The translations under genes and the position numbers were made by a program. From a bacterium (lineage in GTDB: Bacteria > Verrucomicrobiota > Verrucomicrobiae > Opitutales > Opitutaceae), in contig JAJXYI010000202.1 of the NCBI GenBank assembly GCA_021780625.1, forward strand, positions 1 to 32,972: a DNA stretch of 32,972 bases. The letters are read 5' to 3'. Numbering within the stretch: position 1 is the stretch's first letter; each line of letters starts with the position of its first letter. Shown here one piece after another: positions 17,427 through 32,803 of this stretch. The notes under the pieces are model-generated. The model made no database searches and was not told the origin of the DNA. It saw only the letters and a program-made list of their open reading frames with translations.

Positions 17427-18707
17427 ATGTCCACTCCCATCGATCCCCGCGAAGCCCTGGTCGCCACCATGCAGCGCATCTACCAGTACCGCATGACGAC
17501 CACATCGGGCGGAAACCTCTCCATCCGCGAACCCTCCGGCGACATTTGGATCACGCCGGCTAGGGTCGACAAGGGCGCGCTGGTGCCCGCCGACATCGTA
17601 CGAGTGAGGGACGACGGCAGATTGGAGGGACGACACCCCCCGTCATCGGAACTGCCGTTCCACAGGGAGATCTATCGTCGGCGACCGGACTTTGGCGCGA
17701 TCGTGCATGCGCATCCCGGAGCCCTCGTGGCGTTTTCGATTTGTAGACAACTGCCGGATACGCGCCTGCAATCGCACGTGCACCAGGTCTGCGGCCGGGT
17801 GGCGATGGCCCCCTATGCCTGTCCGGGCACCCAGGCCCTCGGGGACAATATCGCGGCGACCTTCGAGCAGGGGGCCGACTGCGTGCTGCTGGAGAATCAC
17901 GGCGTGGTGATCGGCGGGAGCGACCTGAAGGACGCCTTCCAGCGGTTTGAAACGCTCGAGTTTGCGGCGCAGACACTCGTCCGTGCTGCGATGCTCGGGC
18001 CGAAGCGGGTGCTGACTCCGGAGGCGCTGGCGATCGACACCATGCCGCACTTTGACGAACTTCCCGCGCGGCAGGAATCGCGACGGGAGCCGGAGTTGCG
18101 TGCGGCGATCTGCTCCTTTGTCCATCGCGCCTACCGGCAGCGCCTGCTGATCAGCACGGCGGGTGCATTTTCGGCACGCCTCGAGGGTACGGAGTTTCTT
18201 ATCACCCCCCGGCGCAGGGATCGGTTGGAGGTCCAACCCGATGGCCTCGTGAGGGTGAGCGGTCGGGCCTGCGTGGCGGACCTGCAGCCGAGCCGATCGG
18301 CGAGTCTGCATGCGGCCATCTACGCCCGTATCCCCGGCGTGGGGGCCGTCATCAATGCGCAGCCGGCGCATGCGTCTGCGTTCTGCGTCACGGACGCGAT
18401 CTTGAGCACGCACACCATTCCGGAGAGTTACGTCGTGTTGAACAACCCCCCGAAGCTCCCCTTCCTTCGCATCGTCGAGGACGCGGAATCGATCGCCGGA
18501 CAACTGTCGCTTGAGAAGACGCCGGTGCTGCTCATTGAGAACGAAGGAGCCGTGGTCATCGGACGCACTCCGCTCGAGGCCTTCGACCGCCTTGAAGTGC
18601 TGGAGGCGACTGCGGAAGCGCTCCTGCTCGCGCGGCCCCTGGGGAAAATCGTGCCCATGGGGGCGGCGGCCATCGACGAGCTTCGGCGCGTCTTCAAGCT
18701 CGCCTGA
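17427..18707 (+). CDS. Double-domain class II aldolase family protein (active N-terminal, degenerate C-terminal domain)
   Basis: A 426-residue protein built of two class II aldolase/adducin domains; family members such as FucA have one (~215 aa). The first half keeps the FucA-type residues: Glu75 (SSELPFH), His94 and His96 (VHAHPG) and His158 (ENHGVVIGG). In the second half the matching positions are Ser291, Asn310 and Gln312 (INAQPAHA) and Glu373 (ENEGAVVIG), so every metal ligand is lost. The first domain could cleave a ketose-1-phosphate to DHAP and lactaldehyde; the second may be structural or regulatory. No encapsulation helix is visible, so it is probably cytosolic. It precedes the DeoR regulator and lies 2 kb upstream of the shell genes, which already include another aldolase. 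Leader is C/T-rich without Shine-Dalgarno. Confidence 0.85.
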   Translation: MSTPIDPREALVATMQRIYQYRMTTTSGGNLSIREPSGDIWITPARVDKGALVPADIVRVRDDGRLEGRHPPSSELPFHREIYRRRPDFGAIVHAHPGALVAFSICRQLPDTRLQSHVHQVCGRVAMAPYACPGTQALGDNIAATFEQGADCVLLENHGVVIGGSDLKDAFQRFETLEFAAQTLVRAAMLGPKRVLTPEALAIDTMPHFDELPARQESRREPELRAAICSFVHRAYRQRLLISTAGAFSARLEGTEFLITPRRRDRLEVQPDGLVRVSGRACVADLQPSRSASLHAAIYARIPGVGAVINAQPAHASAFCVTDAILSTHTIPESYVVLNNPPKLPFLRIVEDAESIAGQLSLEKTPVLLIENEGAVVIGRTPLEAFDRLEVLEATAEALLLARPLGKIVPMGAAAIDELRRVFKLA

Positions 18708-18770
18708 AATCGCGCGGCCGGCGCTTCTGGGATTGATTCCGCCAGAGCACCGCGACCATTGTCCCGGGCC

Positions 18771-19553
18771 ATGCGTGTTCCCCTCCACATCGTCGAACGC
18801 CGCCGAGGACGCTTGCGCGACCTCATCCGCACCGATGGGTTTCTGCCGGTGGCTGAACTCAGCCGGCGACTTGGGGTTTCGGAGGTGACGGTGCGGCGGG
18901 ACCTGACGGCAGTGGCTGCGGACGGGCAGATCACCCGCACGCGCGGGGGTGCGCTGGCGGATTACAACACGACCTTCGCCTCGCTCGGACAACGTGCGCA
19001 CCGCGCACGTTCGGCGAAGGGGCGAATAGCGCAGGCCGCGTTGACGCACCTGCCTTCCAGCGGGGTGGTCTTTCTCGACGCCGGCACGACGGTTCAGGCG
19101 CTCGCTCGCCAACTGCTCCGCCGGCGCACGAGCGGGGAACTCACGATCGTGACCAACAGCCTGCCCGTGGCGAGCATCCTGGGCGGCGCCCGCGGCATCG
19201 AGCTGCACGTGCTCGGCGGACTCTTCCTCCACCGCCAGGCGGTCCTGCTCGGCCCCGAGTCCGTGCGCGCGCTCGCCGACTGGAAGTTCGACGCCTCGTT
19301 TCTGGGTGGAGAGGGGATGGACGCCGAGGGGATCACCAACTCCCACGCGAACCTCGCGCTCTTCCAACAGGCTGTGCTTCGCAGGTCGGCCGAGACCCTC
19401 TTCTGCCTGGATGCGACGAAGCTGTCGCGAGCCACCCCACATCGGGTGACAGGCTGGGACGGCCCGCTCACGCTCGTGACGGATGCCGCGCCGGCAGCCC
19501 TAGCGGGCGCCGGGATCAGCCTACCTTCCAGGAAGCTGATCGTGGCCCGCTGA
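18771..19553 (+). CDS. DeoR-family transcriptional repressor of the microcompartment operon
   Basis: A 260-residue protein. The N-terminal DeoR HTH spans residues ~8-60 (VAELSRRLGVSEVTVRRDL, then ITRTRGGAL). The DeoRC sensor domain contains the sugar-phosphate-site signature VFLDAGTTVQALARQL and IVTNSLPVASIL. DeoR repressors are usually released by phosphorylated sugars, here most likely a rhamnulose/fuculose phosphate or its product (inference). ATG 18771 is preferred over TTG 18759. It is 63 bp after the aldolase gene and directly upstream of the palindrome at 19609. A DeoR gene at this place is a known feature of PV-type BMC loci. Confidence 0.88.
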   Translation: MRVPLHIVERRRGRLRDLIRTDGFLPVAELSRRLGVSEVTVRRDLTAVAADGQITRTRGGALADYNTTFASLGQRAHRARSAKGRIAQAALTHLPSSGVVFLDAGTTVQALARQLLRRRTSGELTIVTNSLPVASILGGARGIELHVLGGLFLHRQAVLLGPESVRALADWKFDASFLGGEGMDAEGITNSHANLALFQQAVLRRSAETLFCLDATKLSRATPHRVTGWDGPLTLVTDAAPAALAGAGISLPSRKLIVAR

Positions 19554-19695: not shown

Positions 19696-20373
19696 ATGTC
19701 CCAAACCCCTTCCACCCCCCATCGCGCAGAGGTCGAGCATGTTGTCAGGCGGCTGTTGTACCAGCGCCTCAACCGTCCGGCTCCGCGTTCAGCGCTCTCG
19801 CCTCATCCGCTGGTGGTCAACGTCAGCGCCCGCCACTGCCACCTCACGGCGCAGGCGGTGGAGACGCTGTTTGGCAAGGGGCACGTGCTTCATCCCAGGA
19901 AGGCCCTGTATCAAGGCGGACAGTACGCCGCCGAGGAGGCCGTCACCCTGATCGGTCCGCGCAGCCGGATGATCTCCAATCTTCGCATCCTCGGACCCTG
20001 CCGCGACATCAACCAGGTGGAGCTGGCGTTTACGGACGCGATTTCCCTGGGCTTCGACGTTCCGGTGCGCGCGTCGGGCGATATCAAGGATACGCCCGGT
20101 TGCATGCTGATGGGTCCGGCGGGATTCCTGGAGCTTCCACAGGGCGTGATCCGCGCCGCTCCGCACGTGCACATGCACCCCGACGACGCAGCCTTTTACG
20201 GGGTCAAGGCCGGCGCCTACATGAAGTTGAGGATCGGTGGTCCGTGCGCGATGACCTTCGACCGCCTGCTGGCCCGCGTCTCCCCGGATTTCAAACTCGA
20301 GGTGCACATCGATACCGACGAGGGCAACGCCTGCGGCCTGGAGGCCGGCGTTTACTGCGAACTTCTGCCGTAA
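19696..20373 (+). CDS. pduL: BMC phosphate propanoyltransferase (PduL-type phosphotransacylase)
   Basis: A 225-residue protein of the PduL family. Metal-binding motifs are visible: His47 and His49 in NVSARHCHLT, and the His157/159/161 cluster in APHVHMHPDDA. Arg103 lies in GPCRDINQVE, near the phosphate/CoA site. It converts acyl-CoA and phosphate to acyl-phosphate and recycles CoA inside the shell; in this pathway the substrate would be lactyl-CoA. Residues ~11-25 (AEVEHVVRRLLYQRL) form an amphipathic helix typical of an encapsulation peptide. It is the first gene after the operator and leads the operon. Confidence 0.93.
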   Translation: MSQTPSTPHRAEVEHVVRRLLYQRLNRPAPRSALSPHPLVVNVSARHCHLTAQAVETLFGKGHVLHPRKALYQGGQYAAEEAVTLIGPRSRMISNLRILGPCRDINQVELAFTDAISLGFDVPVRASGDIKDTPGCMLMGPAGFLELPQGVIRAAPHVHMHPDDAAFYGVKAGAYMKLRIGGPCAMTFDRLLARVSPDFKLEVHIDTDEGNACGLEAGVYCELLP

Positions 20374-20436: not shown

Positions 20437-20706
20437 ATGAATGAATCTCTCGGAATGATAGAGACCAAGGGCTACGTCGGCTCCGTTGAGGCCAGCGACG
20501 CCATGGTCAAGGCGGCTGGCGTGACGCTGGCCCGCCAGATCCAAATCGGCGGCGGCCTGGTGACGGTCATCGTCAAGGGCGACATCGGCAGCGTGAAGGC
20601 AGCGGTGGAAGCCGGCGCCGATGCGGCCAAACGCGTGGGCGAGCTCGTCTGCGCTCACGTCATCGCCCGTCCCCACGCCGAACTGCTCAAGGCGTTTTCG
20701 CTCTGA
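20437..20706 (+). CDS. BMC-H shell protein 1
   Basis: An 89-residue single BMC domain, close in length and sequence to PduA ([20 protein letters not shown], then [17 protein letters not shown]). It forms hexamers that tile the shell facets. The pore loop is GGG (residues 38-40) where PduA has GSG. It ends shortly after the domain ([12 protein letters not shown]) with no extension. The leader is C/A-rich with no Shine-Dalgarno sequence. It is followed 28 bp later by a second BMC-H gene; strong expression is expected because hexamers outnumber other shell parts. Confidence 0.95.
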
Positions 20707-20734: not shown

Positions 20735-21016
20735 ATGGCACAAGAAGCTCTCGGAATGATTGAAACCAAAGGCCTGTGCGCTCTGCTCGAGGCCTCCGAC
20801 GCCGCCCTAAAGGCGGCCAACGTGACGATGACGGGCTATGAGGCCATCGGCTCGGGCAATGTGGCCGCGTTTTTCCGCGGTGACGTCGCCTCGCTGAAGG
20901 CCGCCATCGATGCCGGCGCCGAAGCGGCCAAGCGCGTCGGCGACGTGGTCGCGGTGCAGGTGATCCCGCGCCCGCACGAAGACCTCGCCGGTCTCGGCAA
21001 GTGGGCCGCGTCCTGA
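20735..21016 (+). CDS. BMC-H shell protein 2
   Basis: A 93-residue single BMC domain ([40 protein letters not shown]). The ATG at 20735 gives the canonical [11 protein letters not shown] start; the longer in-frame version reads through the end of BMC-H 1. The pore loop is GSG (residues 39-41), as in PduA, but the following strand ([10 protein letters not shown]) differs from paralogue 1, so pore surroundings are not equivalent. C-terminal tail [10 protein letters not shown] is short. A strong hairpin lies between this gene and the kinase gene. Confidence 0.95.
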
Positions 21017-21088: not shown

Positions 21089-22279
21089 ATGCAGATTCTG
21101 GTCGCAAACCTGGGCTCCACTTCGTTCAAGTACCGGCTGTTCGCTCTCGAAGGCGACCAGCCCCGGTTGCTGACGCGGGGCGGAAGCGAGCGGGTGACGG
21201 ACTACGGCGCCGCGATCAGCCGCGCCCTGACCGAGCTTTCGGAGGACGGCCATCTGCGCGACGCCTCCGATCTCGCGGGCGTGGGTTTCAAGACAGTCCT
21301 GGGTGGCGAGATTTCGGGCTGCGTCTTCGCGGACGAGTCCGTGGAGCAGGCGCTGCGCGATACGGCCGACCTGGCTCCCGCCCACAATCCTCCCTATGCC
21401 GAGGGACTGCGGATTTTCCGCGAACGCCTCCCGGGCGTCCCGCGTATCGCCCTGTTCGAGACGGCCTTTTACCAGTGGATTTCCGACGCCGCACGACGGT
21501 ATGCGGTGCCCGAGGCATGGTTCAAGGCGGGCATCCGGCGCTACGGTTTCCACGGGGCGAGCCACAAATTCGTGGCGGAACGCTCCTCCGAGCTGCTGGG
21601 TCGGCAGGATGTCGCGGACGTGGCGAAGCGACTTTATCTCGACGGTCCCAAGGAGGTCGCGGGTGCACCGCTGCGCGTGATATCCTGCCACCTAGGCGGG
21701 TCGAGTTCCGTGACGGCTATACGCAACGGCGTCGCCATCGGCACGAGCATGGGTCTCAGCCCCCAGTCGGGCCTGCCTCAGAGCAACCGTGTGGGCGACC
21801 TCGACTCCGCAGCGATTCCCTGCGCGATTCGCAGGCTGGGCCTCACCCTTGAGCAGACGGAGAAACAGCTCGTCAAGGAAAGCGGCCTGCTCGGACTTTC
21901 CGGCGTGAGCAACGACCTGCGCGACATCAAGGCCGCAGCCGATGCCGGCAATCCGGGCGCGCAGCGGGCCATCGATGTCTTTGTGCACAGCATCCGGCAT
22001 TGGATCGGCGCCTTCTGGCTCGAACTCGGCGGATGCGACGCCCTGGTCTTCACGGCGGGCATCGGCGAAAACAACCCGTGGCTTCGCGAGGCGGTCTGCG
22101 CGGGACTTTCGGGGCTCGGGCTCCAGATTTCCCCTGCCCGCAATACGACGGCGCCAGCCGAGATCAATCTCGCGGCCTCGGACTCGGCGACGCGCGTGCT
22201 CGTGATTCCCGCGAACGAGGAACTCGTGGTCGCCCGCGAGGCGGCCCGCCTGCTCGGCTCGCTCAAGCCAGTCTCCTGA
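21089..22279 (+). CDS. ackA: Acetate kinase-family acyl kinase of the BMC locus
   Basis: A 396-residue member of the acetate kinase family (Methanosarcina AckA is 408). It converts acyl-phosphate and ADP to the acid and ATP; here lactyl-phosphate is the expected substrate. Seen motifs: NLGSTSFKY (N-terminal phosphate site), LAPAHNPP, RRYGFHGASHK, SNRVGDLD, FTAGIGEN and ANEELVVARE. Two active-site positions differ from the classic enzyme: Lys68 (GFKTVLGG) replaces Arg91 of HRVVHGG, and Glu124 (FETAFYQ) replaces Asp148 of FDTAFHQ. HLGGSSS replaces HLGNGSS. No encapsulation helix is visible, so it may be cytosolic. It is embedded between BMC-H genes. Confidence 0.9.
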   Translation: MQILVANLGSTSFKYRLFALEGDQPRLLTRGGSERVTDYGAAISRALTELSEDGHLRDASDLAGVGFKTVLGGEISGCVFADESVEQALRDTADLAPAHNPPYAEGLRIFRERLPGVPRIALFETAFYQWISDAARRYAVPEAWFKAGIRRYGFHGASHKFVAERSSELLGRQDVADVAKRLYLDGPKEVAGAPLRVISCHLGGSSSVTAIRNGVAIGTSMGLSPQSGLPQSNRVGDLDSAAIPCAIRRLGLTLEQTEKQLVKESGLLGLSGVSNDLRDIKAAADAGNPGAQRAIDVFVHSIRHWIGAFWLELGGCDALVFTAGIGENNPWLREAVCAGLSGLGLQISPARNTTAPAEINLAASDSATRVLVIPANEELVVAREAARLLGSLKPVS

Positions 22280-22321: not shown

Positions 22322-22618
22322 ATGGCACAATCCGCTCTTGGTCTTCTCGAAACGCGTGGTCTCACGGCGCTCGTTGCCGGCACCGACGCCATGCTCAAGT
22401 CCGCCAACGTCTCGCTCGTGGGCCCGATGAAACAGGTCGGCAACGCGATGGTGACCGCCATCGTGGTGGGCGACGTGGCCGCCGTGAAGGCCGCCACGGA
22501 AGCCGGTGCCGCCGCGGCCCGCGTCTATGGCGAGGTCCTCACGGTCCAGGTGATCGCCCGTCCCCACGAGGACATCGCCGCGATTCTCCCGAAGGCTCCC
22601 GCCCCGGCCAAGAAATAA
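22322..22618 (+). CDS. BMC-H shell protein 3
   Basis: A 98-residue single BMC domain ([40 protein letters not shown]). The pore loop reads KQVGNAMV (residues 37-44), one residue longer than PduA's KIGSGLV and without the second Gly. Its pore chemistry must differ from the two other hexamers. The tail is Ala/Pro/Lys-rich (KAPAPAKK). It lies 42 bp after the kinase gene, and a hairpin follows in the largest gap of the operon (123 bp). Confidence 0.95.
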
Positions 22619-22741: not shown

Positions 22742-23041
22742 ATGTTCCTTGCCCGCGTCATAGGCTCCGTGGTCTCGTCCAAGAAGGACGAGTCCATGCA
22801 CGGCCGAAAGCTCCTCCTGCTTCGCCCGATGCTCGTCGACGAGGCGACCCCGTCGAAGTTCCGCGCCGGTACCAACACGATCGTCGCCGTGGACGCCCTC
22901 GGGGCCGGCATCGGCGATCTGGTGCTGTTCTGCCAGGGTAGCTCGGCCCGCCAGGCCGGAGGCATGAAATCCCTTCCCATCGACGCCGCCGTCATCGGCC
23001 TGGTCGATTCCGTCGAGGTGCTCGGCAAGCGCCTCGACTAA
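22742..23041 (+). CDS. BMC-P (EutN/CcmL-type) shell vertex protein 1
   Basis: A 99-residue EutN/CcmL-family protein (MFLARVIGSVVSSKKDESMH, GRKLLLLRP). It contains the conserved DALGAGIGDLVLFCQGSSAR segment and ends with GLVDSVEV. Pentamers of this family cap the vertices of the shell. It is the closest of the three pentamer paralogues here to canonical EutN/CcmL. It precedes the aldehyde dehydrogenase by 18 bp. Confidence 0.94.
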   Translation: MFLARVIGSVVSSKKDESMHGRKLLLLRPMLVDEATPSKFRAGTNTIVAVDALGAGIGDLVLFCQGSSARQAGGMKSLPIDAAVIGLVDSVEVLGKRLD

Positions 23042-23059: not shown

Positions 23060-24508
23060 ATGTCCTCCGCTCCCGCAATCGACGAGGCACTGGTGCGCAG
23101 TGTCGTCGAGCAAGTCGTCAAGGCCTTCGGCCGCGGCCTCCCCTCGTCGCCCGCGCCCGCCGTCGTCAGCTCCAGCCGCCGTCCCGGCGTCTTTGCCGAC
23201 GCACTGTCGGCCTGCGCCGCCGCTCACGCGGCCTATCTCCAGCTCGCGTCCAAGGGCGTAGCCGCGCGGGCCAAGGTGGTCGAGATCGTGAAAACCCTCG
23301 CCTCCCAGAACGCGGAGGAGTGGGGCAGGTTCGAATTTGCCGAGACCAAGATCGGGCGCCTCGACCACAAGATCGAGAAGCTGCAGATCGTGAAACTCGT
23401 CCCCGGCGTCGAGTGGCTTCACCCGGACGCGCGCAGTGGCGATCACGGTATCACGCTGGAAGAATACACGCCCTTCGGCGTGATCGGCGCGATCCTGCCG
23501 ATGACGCATTCGATCCCGACGCTCTCGGGCAACATCATCAACATCGTCGCCGCGGGCAATTCAGTGGTGTTCAACCCGCACCCGGGTGGCGCGCGCTCCG
23601 CGGCGCTGGCCGTGGCGGCCTACAACGAGGCGATCAAGGCCGCGATCGGCATCGAGAACCTCGTATGCACGATCGAGCAGCCCTCCCTCGAATCCTTTGA
23701 TGCGCTGTGCAAGGCCCCCGAGGTCCGCGTGATCTGCGTCACCGGTGGCCCTGCAGTCGTCGCGGCCGCGATGAAATCCGGCAAACGCGCGATCTGCGCC
23801 GGCCCGGGCAATCCGCCGGTGCTCGTGGACGGCACCGGCTGCCTCGACAAGGCCGCGCGCGATATCATCCAGGGTGGCGCCTACGACAACAACCTGCTTT
23901 GCGTCGGCGAAAAGGAGGTCTTCGTCCTCGATTCGGTTGCGGACAAGCTGATGGCGGCGTTCTCCCGCAACGGCGGCCATGCGCTCAATGCGACCCAGCT
24001 GGCGCGCCTCACTTCAGTTGCCTTTTCGACCAAGGCCGACGCCGGCGGCTGCTCGCACCCGGTACTCAACCGCAGCTTCGTGGGGGTCGACGCCGAAGTG
24101 CTTGCCCAACACGCGGGAGCCAACGCCCCCGCGGGCACGCAGCTCCTCTTTGCGGAAACGGACGCCGACCACCCCTTCGTGATCGAGGAACAGATGATGC
24201 CCATGATCCCGATCGTGCGCGTGAAATCCGTCGAGGAAGGCATCGCCGCGGCGATCCGCGCCGAACACGGCTACAAACACTCGGCGATGATCCACTCCCT
24301 GAATGTGGAGCACATGACGATGATGGCCCGCGCTCTGGACACCACGGTGTTCGTGAAAAACGGACCCTGCGTGGCGGGCCTCGGCCTGGGCGGCGAGGGC
24401 TACCTCAGCTACTCCATCGCAACGACGACCGGCGAGGGCATCACGACCCCCAAAACCTTCACCCGCACGCGCCGCTGCGTGATGGTCGACAACCTTCGCA
24501 TCTACTAA
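23060..24508 (+). CDS. BMC CoA-acylating aldehyde dehydrogenase (PduP/EutE-like)
   Basis: A 482-residue protein of the PduP/EutE group. It oxidises an aldehyde to acyl-CoA with NAD+; in this locus L-lactaldehyde to lactyl-CoA is expected. Residues ~7-23 (IDEALVRSVVEQVVKAF) form an amphipathic helix, followed by a Pro/Ala/Ser-rich linker: a classic N-terminal encapsulation peptide. The catalytic Cys281 is in YDNNLLCVGEKEV. The cofactor region contains TPFGVIGAILPMTHSIPT and FNPHPGGARS. The C-terminal part carries KNGPCVAGLGLGGEGY and TRTRRCV. It lies between BMC-P 1 and BMC-P 2, which follows after 3 bp. Confidence 0.95.
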   Translation: MSSAPAIDEALVRSVVEQVVKAFGRGLPSSPAPAVVSSSRRPGVFADALSACAAAHAAYLQLASKGVAARAKVVEIVKTLASQNAEEWGRFEFAETKIGRLDHKIEKLQIVKLVPGVEWLHPDARSGDHGITLEEYTPFGVIGAILPMTHSIPTLSGNIINIVAAGNSVVFNPHPGGARSAALAVAAYNEAIKAAIGIENLVCTIEQPSLESFDALCKAPEVRVICVTGGPAVVAAAMKSGKRAICAGPGNPPVLVDGTGCLDKAARDIIQGGAYDNNLLCVGEKEVFVLDSVADKLMAAFSRNGGHALNATQLARLTSVAFSTKADAGGCSHPVLNRSFVGVDAEVLAQHAGANAPAGTQLLFAETDADHPFVIEEQMMPMIPIVRVKSVEEGIAAAIRAEHGYKHSAMIHSLNVEHMTMMARALDTTVFVKNGPCVAGLGLGGEGYLSYSIATTTGEGITTPKTFTRTRRCVMVDNLRIY

Positions 24509-24511
24509 GCC

Positions 24512-24778
24512 ATGGTCCACGCCCGCATCGACGGCACCATCGTGGCGGCGGCCTGCCACAAAAGCATGGAAGGCCACCGCACCGTGATCTGCCAACCGCT
24601 CGGTGCGGACGGCAGTGACGATGGCGCGCCGGTCCTGGCGATCGATCCTCTCGGCGCGGGCCTCCATCAGCTCGTGATTCTCTCGACGGACGGTTCCGCG
24701 ACCCGCGACTACGTAGGCGATCCAAAATCGCCGCTGCGCAACCTCATCCTCGGCATCGTCGACTCGGCGCAAACCTGA
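24512..24778 (+). CDS. BMC-P shell vertex protein 2
   Basis: An 88-residue EutN/CcmL-family protein (MVHARIDGTIVAAACHKSME, IDPLGAGLHQLVILSTDGSA, LILGIVDS). It is shorter and more divergent than BMC-P 1. It begins only 3 bp after the aldehyde-dehydrogenase stop, so translation is probably coupled. PV loci typically hold three BMC-P paralogues; their separate roles are unresolved. Confidence 0.92.
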   Translation: MVHARIDGTIVAAACHKSMEGHRTVICQPLGADGSDDGAPVLAIDPLGAGLHQLVILSTDGSATRDYVGDPKSPLRNLILGIVDSAQT

Positions 24779-24788: not shown

Positions 24789-25085
24789 ATGCGCCTCGGA
24801 ACTGTAATCGGCCGCGTCACTCTCACGATCAAGGAGCCCGTCTATTCCGGCGGCTGTCTGCTGATCGTGCAGCCATTCTCGCGCGAGCAATTTGCCGGTG
24901 CGCCGAAGCGGCCGCTCGCCAAGGGCTCGAGCGTCGTGGTGTACGACGAACTCGGCGCGGACGAAGGCAGCATCGTCGGGTTCACCGAGGGCGCCGAAGC
25001 TTCGCAACCCTTCGAGGGCGCCGCCCCCGTCGACGCCTACGTGGCGTGCATCGTCACACAGATCAATTATCAGCCCCCGCGCTGA
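24789..25085 (+). CDS. BMC-P shell vertex protein 3
   Basis: A 98-residue EutN/CcmL-family protein (MRLGTVIGRVTLTIKEPVYS, VVVYDELGADEGSIVGFTEG, DAYVACIVTQINY). It starts 10 bp after BMC-P 2. It has a longer central loop (REQFAGAPKRPLAKGSS) than the other two pentamers, and its lineage within the family looks distinct. Confidence 0.92.
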   Translation: MRLGTVIGRVTLTIKEPVYSGGCLLIVQPFSREQFAGAPKRPLAKGSSVVVYDELGADEGSIVGFTEGAEASQPFEGAAPVDAYVACIVTQINYQPPR

Positions 25086-25120: not shown

Positions 25121-26236
25121 ATGCCTCAAGTCCTCACAGCCCGAGAAGTCGAGAGCCTCATTCGCTCCGGTCAGCCCATCCCGGAGGGCGTGCTGCTCAC
25201 GCCCTCGGCGCGCGATGTGCTCGCCGACCTTAAACGCGCTCCGCAGCTGAACCCGGTCGCGGTCGTCGCGCCCGTTCAGACGGCCGCCGTCACGGTGGCT
25301 CCCGCCGTTGCGATGGCGACCGGCCCGATCGTGCCCGACTACGAATACAAATGGACGCCCGGGTCGGACCCGAAGACGCCCGCCGAGATCGAGCGCTTCT
25401 TCAACTCGCCACAGATTCACGAGCTCAAGCGCCGCATCTGCGACATGGGTCGCCGGCTCTGGCTGAAGGACTACACCGACGGCAACGGCGGCAACATCAC
25501 CGTCCGCGTCGGCGACAATCTCGTGCTCTGCACGCCCACGCTCATCTGCAAAGGGTTCATGACTCCCGAGGACATGGCGCTCATCGACCTCGACGGCCGC
25601 CAGCTGGCGGGCACCCGCAAGCGCACGAGCGAGGCGATGACCCACCTGGGCATCATGAAGCGCCAGCCCGCGGCCAAGGCCTGCGTGCACGCGCACCCGC
25701 CGCACGCCACCGCCTTCGCCATCACCAACGCCACCATTCCCTCCTGCCTCATCCCCGAGGCGGAAGTTTTCCTCGGTAAGATCGGCGTCGCTCAGTACCA
25801 GACGCCCGGCACGCCCGAGAACGCGGAGGAAGTCGGCCGCATCGGCGTGGACCATCAGGCCATCCTGATGCAGAACCACGGCGTCATCGTGTGGGGCAAG
25901 GACGTCGAGGACGCGTATTGGAAGATGGAGAACATCGACGCCTATTGCCGCACCGTCGCGATCGCCGCTGGGTTGGGATCGGGACTTCACCGTTTTGGCA
26001 CGGACAAGCTCAAGGATCTCATCAACCTGCGCGTGAAGCTCGGCATGCCCGATCCGCGCGTGGGCCTGAAGGAATGCGAGCTCTGCGACAGCAATGATTT
26101 CCGCGCGCCGGTGGTCTGCGAGTCCCCTGCCGCGCCCGCCTCGGCACCCGCTGCCGAGGCCGCTCCCGATCCGACGATGGAGACGCTCGTGCAGAAGATC
26201 ACCGACGAGATTCTCCGGCAGCTCGCCGGGAAATGA
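25121..26236 (+). CDS. Class II (fuculose/rhamnulose-1-phosphate-type) aldolase targeted to the BMC
   Basis: A 371-residue protein. Residues ~1-40 are a small domain (LTAREVESLIRSGQPIPEGV, LLTPSARDVL) of a kind seen at the ends of other BMC-associated proteins. A Val/Ala/Pro linker follows. The class II aldolase domain spans ~95-330, with Glu171 (TSEAMTH), His190 and His192 (VHAHPPHA) and His253 (QNHGVIV) as catalytic and metal residues. A Pro/Ala linker leads to a C-terminal amphipathic helix (METLVQKITDEILRQLAG), the likely encapsulation peptide. It splits L-rhamnulose-1-phosphate and/or L-fuculose-1-phosphate to DHAP and L-lactaldehyde. ATG 25121 is preferred because an upstream in-frame start would overlap BMC-P 3. 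Confidence 0.92.
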   Translation: MPQVLTAREVESLIRSGQPIPEGVLLTPSARDVLADLKRAPQLNPVAVVAPVQTAAVTVAPAVAMATGPIVPDYEYKWTPGSDPKTPAEIERFFNSPQIHELKRRICDMGRRLWLKDYTDGNGGNITVRVGDNLVLCTPTLICKGFMTPEDMALIDLDGRQLAGTRKRTSEAMTHLGIMKRQPAAKACVHAHPPHATAFAITNATIPSCLIPEAEVFLGKIGVAQYQTPGTPENAEEVGRIGVDHQAILMQNHGVIVWGKDVEDAYWKMENIDAYCRTVAIAAGLGSGLHRFGTDKLKDLINLRVKLGMPDPRVGLKECELCDSNDFRAPVVCESPAAPASAPAAEAAPDPTMETLVQKITDEILRQLAGK

Positions 26237-26282: not shown

Positions 26283-27215
26283 GTGAAAATCACCATCATC
26301 GGCGGCGGCGGCCGCGTGGGATCCAACGCCGCGTTCGCGCTCCAGTGCGCCGGCATTGTCTCGGAAATCCAATTACTCGACGCCAACGCCGACATGGCGG
26401 CCGGCGAGGCGCTCGATCTGCTTCACGGCGCGTCGGTCGCCGGCGACCAGCGCATCTATGCGGGCGATTACGCCCGCGCCATCGACAGCGATGTGTTCCT
26501 GATCACCGCGGGGCTTCGGCGAAAGCCCGACGAATCCCGCCTGGACCTCATCAACCGCAACGTGGCGCTGTTCGATCAGATCGTGACCTCGATCAAGATC
26601 GCCGGCTTCCGCAAGGACGCGCTGGTTTTTGTCGTCTCGAACCCCGTCGATATCCTGACGCAGCTCGCAATCGTGCGGCTTGGGTTGCCCTGGAATCAGG
26701 TGCTCGGGCTCGGCACCATGCTCGACACCGCCCGCTTCCGCTCGCTGATCGCCGACTCCCTGAAGCTCGCGCCGACGCAGGTGAAGGCCCTGATCCTCGG
26801 CGAGCACGGCGACACGATGGTGCCGGTGTGGTCGAGCGCCACGGCGGCGGGTCTGCCGTTGGACAAATTTCCCGGGGTCTCGGCGTCCTTCCAGTCCGAG
26901 GTGTTTGACCGGACAAAGACCAGCGGCGCCGAAGTCATCCGCCGGAAGGGTGGGGCAGGCTGGGCGGTCGCCGTGTCGATCGCCGAGGTCGTGCACGCCA
27001 TTGCACTGGACCGTCGTCAGCTGCTTCCGGTGTCCTCGCTTCAGCAGGGCAAGTACGGCCTGCGCGACGTGTCGATCAGCGTTCCCACCGTGGTGGGCCG
27101 GGCCGGTGTGCTCGCCCAGCTCGAGATTCCCCTCTGGCCCAAGGAACACCAGGGCCTCCAGGCCAGCGCGCGTGCGCTGCAGGAGATCTGGTCCAAGGTG
27201 AAACCCCGGGCTTGA
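26283..27215 (+). CDS. Lactate/malate dehydrogenase-family NAD-dependent oxidoreductase
   Basis: With a GTG start at 26283 the protein is 310 residues and begins at the nucleotide-binding Gly motif (KITIIGGGGRVGS), so this start is firm. Catalytic residues: His175 (GEHGDTMVPVW), Asp148 and Arg151 (LDTARFR), Arg86 (ESRLDL). The specificity position (LDH Gln102) is Arg80 in AGLRRKPDESR, as in malate dehydrogenases. In PV loci this enzyme is proposed to regenerate NAD+ by reducing lactaldehyde to 1,2-propanediol. No encapsulation helix is visible. It lies between aldolase and rhamnulokinase genes with gaps of 46 and 31 bp. Confidence 0.88.
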   Translation: MKITIIGGGGRVGSNAAFALQCAGIVSEIQLLDANADMAAGEALDLLHGASVAGDQRIYAGDYARAIDSDVFLITAGLRRKPDESRLDLINRNVALFDQIVTSIKIAGFRKDALVFVVSNPVDILTQLAIVRLGLPWNQVLGLGTMLDTARFRSLIADSLKLAPTQVKALILGEHGDTMVPVWSSATAAGLPLDKFPGVSASFQSEVFDRTKTSGAEVIRRKGGAGWAVAVSIAEVVHAIALDRRQLLPVSSLQQGKYGLRDVSISVPTVVGRAGVLAQLEIPLWPKEHQGLQASARALQEIWSKVKPRA

Positions 27216-27246: not shown

Positions 27247-28665
27247 ATGAGCAAACCCCTGCATTGCGCAGCTGTCGACCTGGGTGCGACGAGCGGGCGG
27301 GTGATCGTCGGCACCTGGAACGGACAGAAACTTTCGCTCACCGAAGTCCGCCGCTTCGCCAATCAGTTTCGCCCTTTCGCCGGGCATGATTATTGGGACC
27401 TGCCTTACCTCTGGGGCGAGGTGCGCGAAGGCCTGATCGAGGCGAAGCGGCGCTTTCCGACGCTCGCCTCGGTGGGCGTCGACACCTGGGCTGTAGACCA
27501 CGCGCTCGTCGACAGGCGGGGACGCCCGGTCTTCCCGGTTCATGCGTACCGCGACTCCCGCACGGCCGCCTTCTCGGCTCGTCTGGGGAAGAGCGGCATC
27601 AAGCGCGTCTACGGCCTCACGGGCGTTCCCAATTATCCTTACAACACCAGTCTCCAATTAGTGGAGACGCTGAACGCCTGCCCCGGGATGGCCGAGGTCG
27701 CGGAGCGCTGCCTCTTCCTGCCCGACTATTTCAATTTCCTGCTCTCGGGCCGGATGGAGAACGAACTCTCCATCGCGAGCCACTCCCAGCTGCTCGACGT
27801 GCATGGCACCGACTGGTCGAAGGAAGCCCTGGATTATTTCGGGATCCCCGCGAAATGGTTCACCAAGCCCGCGGTCTCTCCGAAACGTCTGGGACCGGTC
27901 ACGGGCGTGGCGGAGTTGAAGGGGGTCCAATCGATCCTCGTCCCCGGCCACGATACGGCCTGTGCGTTTGCGGCCATGCCGGCGTCGGCCGATGGGACGG
28001 ACCTCTATTTGAGTTCGGGCACCTGGTCGCTGCTCGGCTTCGAAAGCCCGGCCCCCGTGCTCGGTCCGAAGGCGCTCAGCTCCCGCATTTCAAACGAACG
28101 CATGGGCGACGGCAGCTATCGCCCGCTGCGTTCCTGTCTCGGACTGTGGCTGCTCGAGCAGACCCTGAAGACCTTCGAAAAAAAACCGACCGGACGGCGG
28201 GAATGGCTCCAACTGGACCGCGAGGCGGAGGTCAAACCCGCCCCGGCGATGCTTCTGGACGTGACCGACAGCTCCCTCTTCAGCCCGCCGGACATGCGGG
28301 TGGCGGTGGACGCCCAGCTACGCAGCCGCGGAGCGAAGCCGCCCAAGGACCTTGCCGGTTACGTGCGCCTGATTTGCGACTCCCTCGGACGCGGGCATGC
28401 AGACGCCGTGAAAACCTTCGAGCAGCTGTCCGGACGTCGCTTCGAGCGCATCCTCATCGTCGGAGGTGGCTCCAAGAGCCGGCCCCTGTGCCAGGCGACG
28501 GCCAATGCCGCCGGCCTGCCGGTCGTGTCCTTCGCCCTGGAAGGCTCCGCGGTGGGCAACATCGCCAGCCAACTCGTCACCCTCGGTGCGGTGGAGAATC
28601 TCGCGGCGTTCCGCGAGCGTCTTGCCCGCAGTCTCCAACAAACGGTTTACAGTCCGAATGCGTGA
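27247..28665 (+). CDS. rhaB: L-rhamnulokinase
   Basis: A 472-residue FGGY-family carbohydrate kinase (E. coli RhaB is 489). The N-terminal ATPase motif is CAAVDLGATSGRVIVG. GVDTWAVDHALVD holds the catalytic-base region. C-terminal motifs include PGHDTACAFAAMP, YLSSGTWSLLGFE and the adenosine motif ILIVGGGSKSRPLCQATANA, which follow RhaB rather than FucK. It phosphorylates L-rhamnulose at C1, giving the aldolase substrate. It is followed after 48 bp by the isomerase gene. Confidence 0.92.
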   Translation: MSKPLHCAAVDLGATSGRVIVGTWNGQKLSLTEVRRFANQFRPFAGHDYWDLPYLWGEVREGLIEAKRRFPTLASVGVDTWAVDHALVDRRGRPVFPVHAYRDSRTAAFSARLGKSGIKRVYGLTGVPNYPYNTSLQLVETLNACPGMAEVAERCLFLPDYFNFLLSGRMENELSIASHSQLLDVHGTDWSKEALDYFGIPAKWFTKPAVSPKRLGPVTGVAELKGVQSILVPGHDTACAFAAMPASADGTDLYLSSGTWSLLGFESPAPVLGPKALSSRISNERMGDGSYRPLRSCLGLWLLEQTLKTFEKKPTGRREWLQLDREAEVKPAPAMLLDVTDSSLFSPPDMRVAVDAQLRSRGAKPPKDLAGYVRLICDSLGRGHADAVKTFEQLSGRRFERILIVGGGSKSRPLCQATANAAGLPVVSFALEGSAVGNIASQLVTLGAVENLAAFRERLARSLQQTVYSPNA

Positions 28666-28713
28666 GCCTCGCACCGTCGCCCTGCCAGGGATTTGATGCA
28701 CGCTTTACCCGCC

Positions 28714-29985
28714 ATGCCCTCCGAAAAACAAATCTCGTCCGCCTACCGTCTCGCCCGCGCCGCCTACGCCGATTATGGCGTCGACACCGAGGCCGCCCTC
28801 GCGAAGGCGCTCTCGATTCCGATCTCGCTGCACTGCTGGCAGGCGGACGACGTCCGCGGCCTGGAGACGCCGAAAGAAGGGCTCGATTCGGGTGGCATCA
28901 TGGCGACAGGCGGCTACCCCGGCCGTGCACGCAACGGCGACGAGATGCGCGCCGACCTCGACGTCGTGCTCAAGCTCCTCCCGGGCCGGCAACGGCTGAA
29001 CCTGCACGCCTTCTATGCCGAAACCGGTGCGAAGGTCGTCGACCGCGATGCGCTCGAGCCCGAGCACTTCTCCCGCTGGCTCGCCTGGGCGAAGGAGCGG
29101 CACGTCGGTCTGGATTTCAACCCGACCTATTTCGCCCACTTGATGGCCACCTCGGGCTTCACACTTTCGTCCCCCGACAAGGCCGTGCGCCGCTTCTGGA
29201 TCGACCACGGCAAGGCCTGCCGCCGGATCGCAGAACATTTCTCCAAAAAACTCGGCTCGCCGTGCGTCCATAATCACTGGATACCGGACGGCGCCAAGGA
29301 CGCTCCGGCCGATCGCTGGGCGCCGCGCGCGAGGCTCGTCGAGTCCTTCGACACGATCTTCGCCGACAAGAGCGTCAGCCGAAAGCACTGCGTCGACGCT
29401 GTGGAGGGCAAACTCTTCGGCCTCGGCAGCGAGGACTACGTGGTCGGCTCCCAGGAATTCTATTCCAGCTACGCGCAGAGCCGGGGACTCGTCCTCTGCC
29501 TCGATCTCGGACACTACCATCCGACTGAATCCGTCGCCGACAAGGTCTCGGCGCTGATGCAGTTTCACCCGCGCATCCTTCTTCACACCAGCCGTCCAGT
29601 GCGCTGGGATAGCGACCACGTGGTGATCCTCGACGATCCCGTGCGTTCGCTCTTCCTCGAGATCGCGCGCGGCGCCGCCTGGGACCGCGTCTTCGTGGCG
29701 CTGGACTTCTTCGACGCCTCCATCAACCGGCTCGCTGCTTACGTCATCGGGGCGCGCGCCACACGGCAGGCCATCCTGCTCGGCCTGCTCGATCCCTCGA
29801 AGCCGTTGGGCCAGGCCGAGGCGGCCGGCCGCGGCCACGAACGGCTCGCCCTGATGGAACAGGCCAAGGCTCTGCCCTGGGGCGCGGTCTGGGACGAGCT
29901 CTGTGCTCGCGCCGATGTTCCGGTGCGTTCCAATTGGCTCGCGACCGTAGCCCGCCACGAGCGCGACACGCTTTCAAAACGCTGA
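28714..29985 (+). CDS. rhaA: L-rhamnose isomerase
   Basis: A 423-residue protein (E. coli RhaA 419), recognisable throughout: PISLHCWQADDVRGLE, MATGGYPGRARN, LDFNPTYFAH, FWIDHGKACRRIA, LDFFDASINRLAAYVIG. Metal and catalytic residues lie in DAVEGKLFGLG (Glu), LCLDLGHYHPTE (Asp, His) and RPVRWDSDHVVILDD (Asp pair). It interconverts L-rhamnose and L-rhamnulose. ATG 28714 (MPSEKQISSAYRLA) gives an N terminus like E. coli; ATG 28696 adds six residues and cannot be excluded. The stop overlaps the lutA start by one base (TGATG). It shows that rhamnose, not only fucose, feeds this BMC. Confidence 0.94.
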   Translation: MPSEKQISSAYRLARAAYADYGVDTEAALAKALSIPISLHCWQADDVRGLETPKEGLDSGGIMATGGYPGRARNGDEMRADLDVVLKLLPGRQRLNLHAFYAETGAKVVDRDALEPEHFSRWLAWAKERHVGLDFNPTYFAHLMATSGFTLSSPDKAVRRFWIDHGKACRRIAEHFSKKLGSPCVHNHWIPDGAKDAPADRWAPRARLVESFDTIFADKSVSRKHCVDAVEGKLFGLGSEDYVVGSQEFYSSYAQSRGLVLCLDLGHYHPTESVADKVSALMQFHPRILLHTSRPVRWDSDHVVILDDPVRSLFLEIARGAAWDRVFVALDFFDASINRLAAYVIGARATRQAILLGLLDPSKPLGQAEAAGRGHERLALMEQAKALPWGAVWDELCARADVPVRSNWLATVARHERDTLSKR

Positions 29986-30752
29986 TGGCTTCCGACCGGC
30001 AACTTCCCCGCGCCGACCGGCGTGTGATGCTGATGGCGACCTGCCTGTGCGACGCGTTCTACGCGGATGCCGCCCGCGCGACGGTTGAGGTGCTCGAGCA
30101 TCTCGGTTGCACGGTCGAGTTCCCTGAAGGCCAGACCTGCTGCGGCCAGCCTGCCTTCAACGGCGGCGACTGGGATGCCTCTCGCCAGGTGGTGCGCCAC
30201 GCGGTGAAGACATTCGCGGGCGACCTGCCCGTCATCGTGCCCTCGGGTTCGTGCGCTGCCATGCTCACGCACGGCACGGCGCTGGAGTTCGAGAAGGAGG
30301 CTGATCTCGGCGAGGTGCGGCAACTTGGCCGGCGCACCTGGGAGTTGGCGGATTTCATTGTGAACGGCCTCGGCGTGAAAACCTGGCCCGGACGTTATGA
30401 GGGGCGGATCGCGTTTCACCGGTCCTGCCACTGTCGCGGCTCGGAGACGGTCCCCGCTGCGCTCGCGCTGCTCTCATCGATAGCCGGCGCCAGCGTTGCG
30501 CCCTTCGGCGAATCCGACCAGTGCTGCGGCTTTGGAGGCACCTTTTCTGTCAGCTTCCCGCACATCTCCTCGGCCATGGGCACGCTCAAGCTCGAACACA
30601 TCCGTGCCTCCGCGCCCGACGTCCTGGTGTCGGTCGACATGAGCTGCCTCATGCACATGGCTGGCCTCGCCGAAAAGGCGGGCCAGCCGATCCGCACCCA
30701 GCATGTCGCGCAAGTGCTGCGAGATGCGCTCCGGAACGAAAATCTTCTCTGA
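29985..30752 (+). CDS. lutA: L-lactate utilisation protein LutA (cysteine-rich Fe-S subunit)
   Basis: A 255-residue CCG-domain protein (Bacillus LutA about 238). Two CCG motifs are seen: Cys52-Cys53 in QTCCGQPAFNGG and Cys180-Cys181 in QCCGFGGTFS. RSCHCRGSE replaces the usual SCH region between them. LutA with LutB and LutC forms a cytosolic iron-sulfur complex oxidising L-lactate to pyruvate. ATG 29985 overlaps the rhaA stop (TGATG), so the Lut genes belong to the rhamnose operon. Confidence 0.93.
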   Translation: MASDRQLPRADRRVMLMATCLCDAFYADAARATVEVLEHLGCTVEFPEGQTCCGQPAFNGGDWDASRQVVRHAVKTFAGDLPVIVPSGSCAAMLTHGTALEFEKEADLGEVRQLGRRTWELADFIVNGLGVKTWPGRYEGRIAFHRSCHCRGSETVPAALALLSSIAGASVAPFGESDQCCGFGGTFSVSFPHISSAMGTLKLEHIRASAPDVLVSVDMSCLMHMAGLAEKAGQPIRTQHVAQVLRDALRNENLL

Positions 30753-30758
30753 TCCGTC

Positions 30759-32192
30759 ATGGCACGCCAGCCCATCGACCAGTTTGTTGAAGGCATTTCT
30801 GCCGAGAAACGCGCCTCGGTCTACCTCGGCACGAAGGTGACGCACGAGAAGCGCGACAAGCTGCTGCACGACCACTACGCGGATCCCGACGCGCTGCGGC
30901 GCCTGGCCGGTGAGATCAAGCAGCATGTCGTCGAAAATCTGGATACCTACCTCCCGAAGGTGGAGGCGAAGCTGCAGTCCAACGGGGTGAAGGTTCACTG
31001 GGCCTCCACGGCCGAGGAGGCCTGCGCCGCCGTCCACGGGATCATGAAGGCAAGGGGGGCGACCAAACTCGTGAAGGCGAAGACGATGGTGAGCGAGGAA
31101 ATCGGCCTGGCCGATTACCTCGAGCATCGCGGTATCGAGGCCCTGGAGACGGATCTTGGCGAGTTCATCGTCCAGATCGACCACGATCACCCGAGCCACA
31201 TCGTCCGTCCGATCATTCACAAGAGCAGGAAAGAGATAGCGACGAGCTTCGAGCGTGAGGGACTCGGCGCCTACAACGACGACCCGGAGACGATCACTCG
31301 CCGCGCGCGGGCCTTCCTGCGGAAGAAATTCCTTCAAGCCGATGTGGGCCTCACGGGGGCTAATTTCGTCTCCGTGGAGAGCGGTCGACTGGTGATCGTG
31401 ACCAACGAGGGAAACTCGCGTTTCTCGCTCGCCGCCACGAAATGCCACATTGCGCTGGTCGGCATCGAGAAGCTGGTGCCGCGCGACCGCGACCTCGGCC
31501 TTTTCCTCAACCTGCTCGCTCGCTCGGCGACGGCCCAGCAGCTCACGGTTTATACCGAATTCATCTCTGGGCCAAAGGCGGCCGCGCAGCCCGACGGCCC
31601 CGAGGAGATGCACGTCATCTTCGTCGACAACCGACGCACGGAAGTGCTGGCCAGCGAGTGCCGGGAAATCCTGCGCTGCATCCGTTGCGGCGCCTGCCTG
31701 AACGTCTGCCCGGTCTACCGGCAGGTGAGCGGCCATGCCTATCGCAGCGTGTATCCGGGGCCTGTGGGCGCCGTGCTCTCGCCGCTGCTCGAGGGCGACA
31801 AGTTTGCGGACAAGGCGGATCTCCCCAAGGCTTCGTCGCTGTGCGGCGCGTGCAACGAGGTGTGTCCGGTGAATATTCCGATTCCCGACCTGCTGCTGCG
31901 CCTGCGCAACAAGGGCAAACGCGAGCATGCTCCGCTGGCGGAGGCGGGCTCGCCTCCGATGGGTGCGTGGGCCCTGATGGCGTCGAGCCCAGCTGCCTGG
32001 AAGACCGCGTTGGTGGCCGGCAAACTGATGAATGTCCTGCCGAAAACGTGGATACCGATTCCAGCGATGAAAGCCTGGACGGACACGCGCACGCTGCCCG
32101 AATGGCGCGGCGGCGAATTTAGGAAATGGCTCAGGCAACGCCCGAGGAAGGCCGACGGTACCAAGGGCAGCCCCCAGTCACACACGCCATGA
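30759..32192 (+). CDS. lutB: L-lactate utilisation protein LutB (Fe-S subunit)
   Basis: A 477-residue protein, the same size as Bacillus LutB. The N-terminal ~270 residues are a LUD-type domain (GLTGANFVSVESGRLVIVTN, EGNSRF). The ferredoxin-like motifs follow: Cys307/310/313/317 in CIRCGACLNVCPVY and Cys362/365/369 in CGACNEVCPVNIPI. It begins 6 bp after lutA and overlaps lutC by ATGA. It should transfer electrons from lactate oxidation; the acceptor is not encoded here. Confidence 0.94.
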   Translation: MARQPIDQFVEGISAEKRASVYLGTKVTHEKRDKLLHDHYADPDALRRLAGEIKQHVVENLDTYLPKVEAKLQSNGVKVHWASTAEEACAAVHGIMKARGATKLVKAKTMVSEEIGLADYLEHRGIEALETDLGEFIVQIDHDHPSHIVRPIIHKSRKEIATSFEREGLGAYNDDPETITRRARAFLRKKFLQADVGLTGANFVSVESGRLVIVTNEGNSRFSLAATKCHIALVGIEKLVPRDRDLGLFLNLLARSATAQQLTVYTEFISGPKAAAQPDGPEEMHVIFVDNRRTEVLASECREILRCIRCGACLNVCPVYRQVSGHAYRSVYPGPVGAVLSPLLEGDKFADKADLPKASSLCGACNEVCPVNIPIPDLLLRLRNKGKREHAPLAEAGSPPMGAWALMASSPAAWKTALVAGKLMNVLPKTWIPIPAMKAWTDTRTLPEWRGGEFRKWLRQRPRKADGTKGSPQSHTP

Positions 32193-32803
32193 GTTCATCC
32201 CGCGACATCATCCTCGAACGCGTGCGCGAGGCGCTCGCTCCGCTCCCAAAGAGGGCACCTTTGCCGGAGTGGGACCTCTCCCGTGCGCGATCGGCAGTCG
32301 CTCCGGCAGGTGCGGATCTGTGGCCCGCCTTTGCGGCGCGCCTGCGAGCGGTGAATGGAACGCCCGTCGCCTCGCCGGACGAATTGGTTGCTCTGCTGGG
32401 GGCCAAGGGCTGGCACCACGGATACTGCGACCCGGCGCTCTGGCCGGCGCTCAAGGCGGCGTTTCCGGCGACGTTTACCGTTGAGACGGCCTTCGACCGC
32501 GAGCGTGTGGACGATTATCAGTTTGGAATCACGTCGGCGGTCGGTGCGATTGCGGAGACAGGAACGATCGTACTCAACGACCGCGGCACCACGACGCGTC
32601 TGGCGGCCCTGGCGCCGTGGGTGCACGTGGCGGCGATCCGGCGGGAAAACATCGTGCCGGATCTCGCGTCGGCGCTCGCGGTGCTTGGCGACGATCCGAA
32701 CGTGATTTGGGTGACCGGCCCCTCGAAGACTGCGGACGTGGAGGGCATTCTGATCGAGGGTGTTCACGGCCCGGGCCTGCAAGTGGCCCTGCTGCTTGAT
32801 TGA
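32189..32803 (+). CDS. lutC: L-lactate utilisation protein LutC (LUD domain)
   Basis: A 204-residue LUD-domain protein (Bacillus LutC is about 240, so this one is on the short side). The N-terminal helix is SSSRDIILERVREAL. The conserved core is FGITSAVGAIAETGTIVLND followed by RENIVPDLASAL and VTGPSKTADVEGILIEGVHG. ATG 32189 overlaps the lutB stop (ATGA); longer in-frame starts lie inside lutB. It is the last gene of the co-directional run from 17427. Confidence 0.92.
   Translation: MSSSRDIILERVREALAPLPKRAPLPEWDLSRARSAVAPAGADLWPAFAARLRAVNGTPVASPDELVALLGAKGWHHGYCDPALWPALKAAFPATFTVETAFDRERVDDYQFGITSAVGAIAETGTIVLNDRGTTTRLAALAPWVHVAAIRRENIVPDLASALAVLGDDPNVIWVTGPSKTADVEGILIEGVHGPGLQVALLLD

Follow-up and report, generated by a model that had tools for sequence, protein, structure and literature searches.

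A PVM microcompartment locus probably dedicated to L-rhamnose, with a malate-type dehydrogenase signature, in an Opitutaceae-like verrucomicrobium

The 32,972-nucleotide contig JAJXYI010000202.1 (assembly GCA_021780625.1; the whole stretch is called the window here) carries at positions 17427-32803 a PV-type (PVM) microcompartment locus of an Opitutaceae-like verrucomicrobium. Our reading, to which we give a probability of about three in four, is that this locus is dedicated to L-rhamnose and that its dehydrogenase, which has the lactate dehydrogenase/malate dehydrogenase (LDH/MDH) fold, is most likely a malate dehydrogenase that regenerates NAD+ and not a lactate oxidase. Four observations carry this reading: the content and order of the genes, a fucose isomerase (FucI) that is not found in relatives, an arginine at specificity position 102 of the dehydrogenase, and the co-distribution of PVM loci with L-rhamnose isomerase (RhaA). 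The organelle type is known, and the passages compared from two papers already report rhamnose genes clustered with PVM shells (PMC5615132) and rhaB clustered with lutABC (PMC11596606); the new points are the malate-type dehydrogenase signature, the PVM-RhaA co-distribution, and one RhaA clade common to shell-bearing and shell-free loci.

Gene content and predicted pathway

The locus comprises 18 genes on the plus strand, with intergenic distances of -4 to 142 nt, in the following order:

17427..18707, +, tandem class II aldolase with two PF00596 domains, the second catalytically degenerate (Pfam and alignment)
18771..19553, +, DeoR-family regulator (ATG at 18771, open reading frame opens at TTG 18759; family match, below every equivalog cut-off)
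19696..20373, +, PduL-type phosphotransacylase (PRK15070, 233.9 against a cut-off of 209; N-terminal encapsulation-peptide-like stretch by eye)
20437..20706, +, BMC-H shell protein 1 (NCBIfam scan only: EutM-like, 104.9, below the equivalog cut-off of 133)
20735..21016, +, BMC-H shell protein 2 (PF00936 over gathering cut-off)
21089..22279, +, acetate/propionate-type kinase, predicted lactyl-phosphate kinase (TIGR00016, 299.3, over the cut-off of 293.4)
22322..22618, +, BMC-H shell protein 3 (PF00936 over gathering cut-off)
22742..23041, +, BMC-P shell protein 1 (NCBIfam scan only: CcmL-like, 77.6, below the equivalog cut-off of 125)
23060..24508, +, CoA-acylating aldehyde dehydrogenase, ALDH (PRK15398, 594.8, over the cut-off of 403; N-terminal encapsulation-peptide-like stretch by eye)
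24512..24778, +, BMC-P shell protein 2 (PF03319 over gathering cut-off)
24789..25085, +, BMC-P shell protein 3 (PF03319 over gathering cut-off)
25121..26236, +, signature class II aldolase (PF00596) with C-terminal encapsulation-peptide-like tail (profile match; alignment of 12 relatives; tail by eye)
26283..27215, +, LDH/MDH-fold dehydrogenase with malate-type Arg at position 102 (PF00056, PF02866; alignments)
27247..28665, +, RhaB, rhamnulokinase (best NCBIfam match rhamnulokinase, below both cut-offs)
28696..29985, +, RhaA, L-rhamnose isomerase (ATG at 28696, open reading frame opens at TTG 28693; PF06134 at 578 bits, PRK01076 over cut-off)
29985..30752, +, LutA-type Cys-rich protein (PF02754 (CCG) over gathering cut-off)
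30759..32192, +, LutB-type L-lactate oxidation iron-sulfur protein (TIGR00273, 469.3, over the cut-off of 444.8; LUD Pfam over cut-off)
32189..32803, +, LutC-type LUD-domain protein (PF02589 over gathering cut-off)

The original prediction had listed the shell, core, rhamnose and Lut genes as consecutive on one strand, and all are present in the order it gave; its list was correct in what it named and omitted the tandem aldolase and the DeoR regulator. RhaB missed both rhamnulokinase models (TIGR02627, 337.2 of 527.95 bits; PRK10640, 335.8 of 639 bits), with the fuculokinase model far lower at 93.3, and RhaA narrowly missed TIGR01748 (565.3 of 584.95). Within the Lut module, TIGR00273 identifies LutB, and LutA and LutC are assigned solely from their Pfam domains and their place in the locus. 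In all 18 genes the GC content is highest at third codon positions and lowest at second positions, and the window is high-GC DNA (59-67% in 2-kb steps). No promoter or terminator signal in 17000-32972 exceeded those of shuffled sequence, and a tRNA scan found none in the window.

The assignment to the PVM type made in the original prediction holds, as the core is complete: a PF00596 aldolase with the encapsulation-peptide (EP) tail, BMC-H and BMC-P genes with ALDH, PduL and an acetate-type kinase, a DeoR regulator and an LDH/MDH-fold gene, which is also the set described for the PVM locus (Erbilgin et al. 2014, through citing papers; Axen et al. 2014, PMC4207490, in the parts compared). We compared the locus with 236 genomes of the same class (labelled G), the nearest of which, G001, shares 97% of sampled words and is 91% complete in 430 contigs; fetched aldolase loci are labelled L. 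A search with the EP-tailed aldolase matched 100 of the 236 genomes at E 1e-40 or better, and four or more shell genes lie in 68 of the 80 aldolase regions fetched from 79 of those genomes. These relatives repeat the order PduL-H-H-AckA-H-P-ALDH-P-P-aldolase, which is therefore not a product of chance, and the C-terminal tail of the aldolase (for example TMETLVQKITDEILRQL) has, by eye, a similar counterpart in 12 of 12 aligned proteins. A scan of named genomes added 80 further loci, the best 80 of 539 relatives, of which four are identical to loci already counted and none is titled Planctomycetota.

As originally proposed, the genes for a full route from L-rhamnose to pyruvate lie in one run, whose expression would presumably be induced by the sugar. 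In the cytosol, RhaA would isomerise rhamnose and RhaB would phosphorylate rhamnulose. Within the shell, the EP-tailed aldolase is predicted to cleave rhamnulose-1-phosphate to dihydroxyacetone phosphate (DHAP) and L-lactaldehyde, the ALDH to convert the latter to lactyl-CoA with formation of NADH, and PduL and the kinase to convert lactyl-CoA to lactate with formation of ATP. The LDH/MDH-fold dehydrogenase would regenerate NAD+ with oxaloacetate, the malate being reoxidised by a separate malate dehydrogenase, and LutABC would oxidise the lactate to pyruvate outside the shell.

Rhamnose or fucose as the substrate

Across the class, PVM loci are found together with RhaA. RhaA occurs in 58 of the 69 PVM genomes and in 61 of the 167 others (Fisher p 1.2e-11), whereas strict FucI occurs in 23 of 69 and 53 of 167, respectively (p 0.88); these p-values are descriptive, as the genomes share ancestry and the non-PVM set was defined without a shell search, so that at least three of its cut contigs are probably PVM. 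Among the 69 PVM genomes, 35 have RhaA without FucI, 23 have both, 11 have neither and none has FucI without RhaA. Counted by family, RhaA is present in 25 of 29 PVM families and FucI in 12 of 29.

The nearer relatives give the same picture. A full-length FucI query, which matched its source genome G184 and, independently, G170 (57% identity), found no match in three genomes of the window's genus (G001, G246 and G279) or in G094, G086, G142 and G059, and both G094 and G086 are listed as a single contig and 100% complete. The original prediction had also argued from the lack of a fucose isomerase or fuculokinase in the locus. None was identified in 17427-32803, and the upstream genes scanned belong to other families. 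The argument is weaker than stated, and we rejected it as evidence for rhamnose: fucI lies beside the shell genes in 0 of 87 distinct PVM loci (those with at least 7.5 kb on either side of the aldolase, window excluded), so its local absence says little and it is the genome-wide absence that counts. In the window's genus the bifunctional rhamnulose-phosphate aldolase/dehydrogenase was not found in any of three incomplete genomes, against its presence in 30 of 61 genomes of the family, stand-alone RhaD not having been searched for.

A broader view would be that the organelle serves L-fucose and L-rhamnose alike and that the rhamnose genes are merely parked beside it. A PVM function in the use of both sugars has been reported for Planctopirus limnophila (as cited in the passages compared of PMC4207490, PMC8217296 and PMC8857213), and a third of the PVM genomes do hold FucI (23 of 69). 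We regard this as unlikely here, given the blank FucI query in the window's genus and in G094, G086, G142 and G059, and given that PVM tracks RhaA and not strict FucI across the class.

Several observations nevertheless weigh against a dedication to rhamnose. Apart from the shared ancestry of the genomes and the 11 that hold neither isomerase, a lax FucI cut-off yields a weak association with PVM (p 0.04; 37 of the 69 PVM genomes and 65 of the 167 others), together with three PVM genomes that have FucI and lack RhaA, and G086 and G142 hold PF02952 proteins of about 500 residues whose function is unsure. Next to their locus, the PVM-bearing near relatives G094, G086 and G142 also have a shell-free aldolase/dehydrogenase. 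Nor is the layout constant across the window's own genus: DNA searches placed RhaB-LutAB and RhaA on separate contigs of G246 (81% complete), with only 32 bases of the aldolase matched, and found no match in G279 (83% complete), the aldolase protein itself not having been searched for in either. Given the blank FucI query in G001 and six relatives, the rhamnose-first reading of the original prediction is well supported.

The slot dehydrogenase and NAD+ recycling

The original prediction called the gene behind the EP-tailed aldolase a lactate/malate-type dehydrogenase; the fold is confirmed, and the residue that distinguishes the two activities is of the malate type. In HMMER alignments the specificity-loop Gln of the two best solved LDHs (PDB) is replaced by Arg in the window protein (row L012), which combines Arg102 with Arg171 and His195 as malate dehydrogenases do and lacks the Gln102 of canonical L-lactate dehydrogenases. 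Of the 86 distinct slot enzymes (90 dehydrogenases were found with PVM loci), 82 have Arg there, and among the 90, 81 of the 86 rows with Arg, those long enough to show both residues, keep Arg171 and His195. The distant LDH/MDH-fold proteins of three genomes without a slot enzyme served as a control and have Gln twice (GETR loop) and Arg once (MDH-type GMSRDD loop). Six of the slot enzymes, each in a distinct locus (L023, L030-L032, L193 and L203), are canonical malate dehydrogenases of the SF1 type. The copy in L031 passes the cut-offs of PRK05442 and TIGR01759; of the 25 solved chains that it hits at 1e-60, 23 bear the title malate dehydrogenase, and the best of these has Arg in the 102 column. 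According to the parts of PMC4109310 compared, Arg102 in MDHs versus Gln102 in LDHs governs specificity, and a single Gln-to-Arg change converted a Bacillus LDH to an MDH. Because the same source warns of epistasis, the malate-type assignment of the slot dehydrogenase from its specificity residue is a strong but not certain prediction.

Other properties of the enzyme and its distribution speak against it. The window protein scores slightly higher on LDH models (TIGR01771, 285.8 of 303.55 bits; PRK00066, 281.9 of 339) than on MDH models (PRK06223, 276.9 of 283; TIGR01763, 221.2 of 351.85), under every cut-off. Its best solved matches are LDHs, the rest of its specificity loop (DESR) is nearer LDH, and no clear encapsulation peptide was seen on it. 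Four slot enzymes do not have Arg102, namely one fragment row and three Cerasicoccus proteins with Ser or Ala. Finally, 39 of 105 loci have neither a full slot dehydrogenase nor a PduS-like gene, and in 28 such G-genomes, with G094 as a positive control, no close slot-dehydrogenase homologue was found elsewhere, three having distant ones at E 1e-30. The dehydrogenase is thus not essential to every PVM locus. The three Cerasicoccus proteins (L174, L189 and L197) are diverged members of the LDH/MDH fold, two of them without the catalytic His, and may perhaps no longer be dehydrogenases.

The published role for this gene is that of an alcohol-dehydrogenase equivalent that would turn part of the lactaldehyde into 1,2-propanediol and thereby recycle NAD+. 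In the parts compared, an alcohol dehydrogenase function was predicted for the PVM dehydrogenase gene by Axen et al. (PMC4207490), PMC8857213 depicts 1,2-propanediol as an intermediate, and the propanediol scheme is restated in PMC6620236. We doubt that it applies here, as no propanediol-using gene was identified in the window. Lactaldehyde, moreover, lacks the carboxylate that Arg171 holds. For enzymes of this fold the substrates are 2-oxo acids, whose side chain is faced by residue 102 and its loop (PMC4109310, same passages).

It is somewhat less probable still that the enzyme is an L-lactate dehydrogenase that makes pyruvate, redundantly with LutABC. The best NCBIfam score and the best solved matches of the window protein would fit, the passages compared from PMC11596606 place an L-lactate dehydrogenase at a metabolosome locus, and many database names agree: 119 of the best 120 homologues listed share the stretch AGLRRKPDES, and many of them are named L-lactate dehydrogenase. 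Such an enzyme would, however, have Gln where 82 of 86 slot enzymes have Arg, SF1 malate dehydrogenases occupy the same slot in six distinct loci, and by oxidising lactate it would add NADH where NADH has to be removed. As the dehydrogenase carries the malate-type residue, LutABC alone is the better candidate for the step from lactate to pyruvate.

How a malate-type slot dehydrogenase would serve the organelle is a more tentative matter, and the model that we put forward, on balance more doubtful than probable, is a malate valve that would balance an NAD+ pool private to the organelle. Oxaloacetate would be reduced within the shell, malate would leave, and a cytosolic malate dehydrogenase would reoxidise it, so that no lactaldehyde is lost to 1,2-propanediol; in some lineages the SF1 malate dehydrogenase or a PduS/RnfC-like conduit would do the same job. 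The titles and abstract openings of the literature surveyed, most subscription papers lying outside it, mention neither a malate role for PVM nor such a scheme of cofactor recycling in a microcompartment. A second PF00056 gene of G001, on contig C29, is a candidate for the enzyme that would reoxidise malate.

Among the 105 distinct loci with enough flanking sequence, 54 have the dehydrogenase only, nine a PduS/RnfC-like gene only (L016, L017, L050, L055, L084, L132, L139, L151 and L156), three have both (L019, L141 and L150) and 39 have neither; the 57 with a dehydrogenase include the three from Cerasicoccus, and the 39 include one fragment (L044). The PduS/RnfC-like gene, of which the L084 copy is nearest RnfC and just under the cut-off, may be an alternative outlet for NADH. 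Mutual exclusion between the two genes was considered and dropped, there being too few PduS cases.

A gene of the Mqo family lies near RhaA/RhaB in L114-L117, L141, L145 and L023, where Lut genes stand elsewhere. We dropped it as a malate:quinone partner of the shuttle, because it also occurs in loci without shell or slot dehydrogenase and occupies the Lut position. NCBIfam names the L117 copy malate:quinone oxidoreductase and its context suggests lactate; given its place at the Lut position, lactate oxidation is as likely a function as malate:quinone oxidoreduction. PF06039 had no match in G001, G246, G279, G094, G086 or G142.

Accessory genes beside the shell

That the isomerase, the kinase and the lactate module are physically joined to the shell genes, a point stressed by the original prediction, is true of the window, although the joining of such genes had been published before (PMC5615132, PMC11596606, in the passages compared). 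The survey of gene order that it called for gives, for the fetched regions of the same 87 PVM loci, a RhaB-like kinase in 20, Lut genes in 10, the bifunctional rhamnulose-phosphate aldolase/dehydrogenase in nine, the tandem aldolase in seven, RhaA in four and an Mqo-family gene in two. Adjacency of RhaA to PVM shell genes is rare in the loci surveyed, the four cases being L014, L015, L132 and L205 and the window a fifth. RhaB, the tandem aldolase, RhaA and LutABC are all together in L132 (a Lacunisphaera metagenome-assembled genome, MAG) and L015 (G086), and L014 (G094) has RhaB, RhaA and the tandem aldolase. G001 has a second RhaB-like gene (G001:C327:4-807), cut by the contig end and 59% identical to the RhaB of the window.

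In a tree of 15 RhaA proteins, those of the window, L014, L132 and L015 group with RhaA of the shell-free loci L114-L117 of the same family (support 100/100). PVM-linked and aldolase/dehydrogenase-linked rows are intermixed, with a single origin of neither label. The RhaA of L205 (an Opitutales MAG) falls outside this group, so the placement of RhaA next to PVM probably arose at least twice, L205 being, like L119, flagged by the tool as a long branch. The shell-free loci L114-L117 resemble the window in their RhaA clade, in RhaB and, for L114-L116, in a DeoR-type gene; they differ in that no PVM shell genes were matched, a bifunctional aldolase takes the place of the compartment, and an Mqo-family gene follows RhaA where the window has LutABC.

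Published loci come close to this arrangement. From the PVM locus as described in the passages compared of PMC4207490, the window differs in that RhaB, RhaA and LutABC follow directly behind the core, in our reading of its dehydrogenase as malate-type, and in its three BMC-H with three BMC-P genes. Freshwater verrucomicrobial loci likewise cluster fucose/rhamnose degradation genes with shell genes in seven MAGs (PMC5615132), though the passages compared do not name adjacency of an isomerase or of lutABC. Chthoniobacteraceae SH-KS-3 (PMC11596606) shares the rhamnose/fucose metabolosome, LutABC in a rhamnulokinase operon and a dehydrogenase in the BMC locus; there, as far as the passages compared go, the dehydrogenase is termed an L-lactate dehydrogenase and the LutABC operon is not stated to adjoin shell genes. 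PVM loci or rhamnose pathways of related bacteria are also treated in PMC9600693, PMC8706344 and PMC12388122, and 285 PVM loci are counted in PMC8217296 (all in the parts compared).

In all 33 rows (30 distinct sequences) the first domain of the tandem aldolase has retained its Glu and its three His, whereas the second has lost the Glu in every row and retains none of the three His in 28 rows and one in five. That it, and not the EP-tailed aldolase, is the working rhamnulose-1-phosphate aldolase, with the shell handling something else, is improbable: its first domain is catalytically complete and in L098, L104 and L111, regions without a matched PVM shell gene, it adjoins RhaA or RhaB and Mqo-family genes, but it occurs in 26 of 236 class genomes, far fewer than the 69 with PVM loci, no encapsulation tail was seen on it by eye, and the signature gene of PVM is the EP-tailed aldolase.

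The EP-tailed aldolase itself has an N-terminal extension (25121-25240) with a TPSARDxL-like motif in seven of 12 aligned rows, several rows starting later; this extension, we presume, resembles the start of EutT-type proteins. In 24 of 160 aldolase loci, the gene after the EP-tailed aldolase or the slot dehydrogenase belongs to one protein family of about 435 residues (for example L064:792-2105, minus strand). No Pfam family passes its cut-off on the L064 copy, whose model (mean pLDDT 68) matches class I DHAP-type aldolases in Foldseek (ADH synthase, LsrF and LacD; best E 3.5e-9). With its conserved, by eye encapsulation-peptide-like C-terminus, the family is possibly a second encapsulated aldolase. 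Upstream of the locus, 2457-17231 encodes three regulators (two LacI, one AraC), a protein with BNR/Vps10-type repeats, a two-component sensor that contains Reg_prop repeats together with the LuxR-type partner of this sensor, and two alpha-galactosidase-type (Melibiase_2) proteins, a polysaccharide locus with no obvious rhamnosidase.

For catabolic microcompartments of the PVM type, the published account of NAD+ recycling, in which an LDH/MDH-fold enzyme converts lactaldehyde to propanediol, was reached by elimination. A specific and cheap test is offered by the Arg102 signature and by the six slots that hold an SF1 malate dehydrogenase. The gene order provides a compact rhamnose-to-pyruvate cassette for expression work. 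The association of PVM loci in this class with rhamnose isomerase, and the lack of one with strict fucose isomerase, bear on which substrate selected for the organelle.

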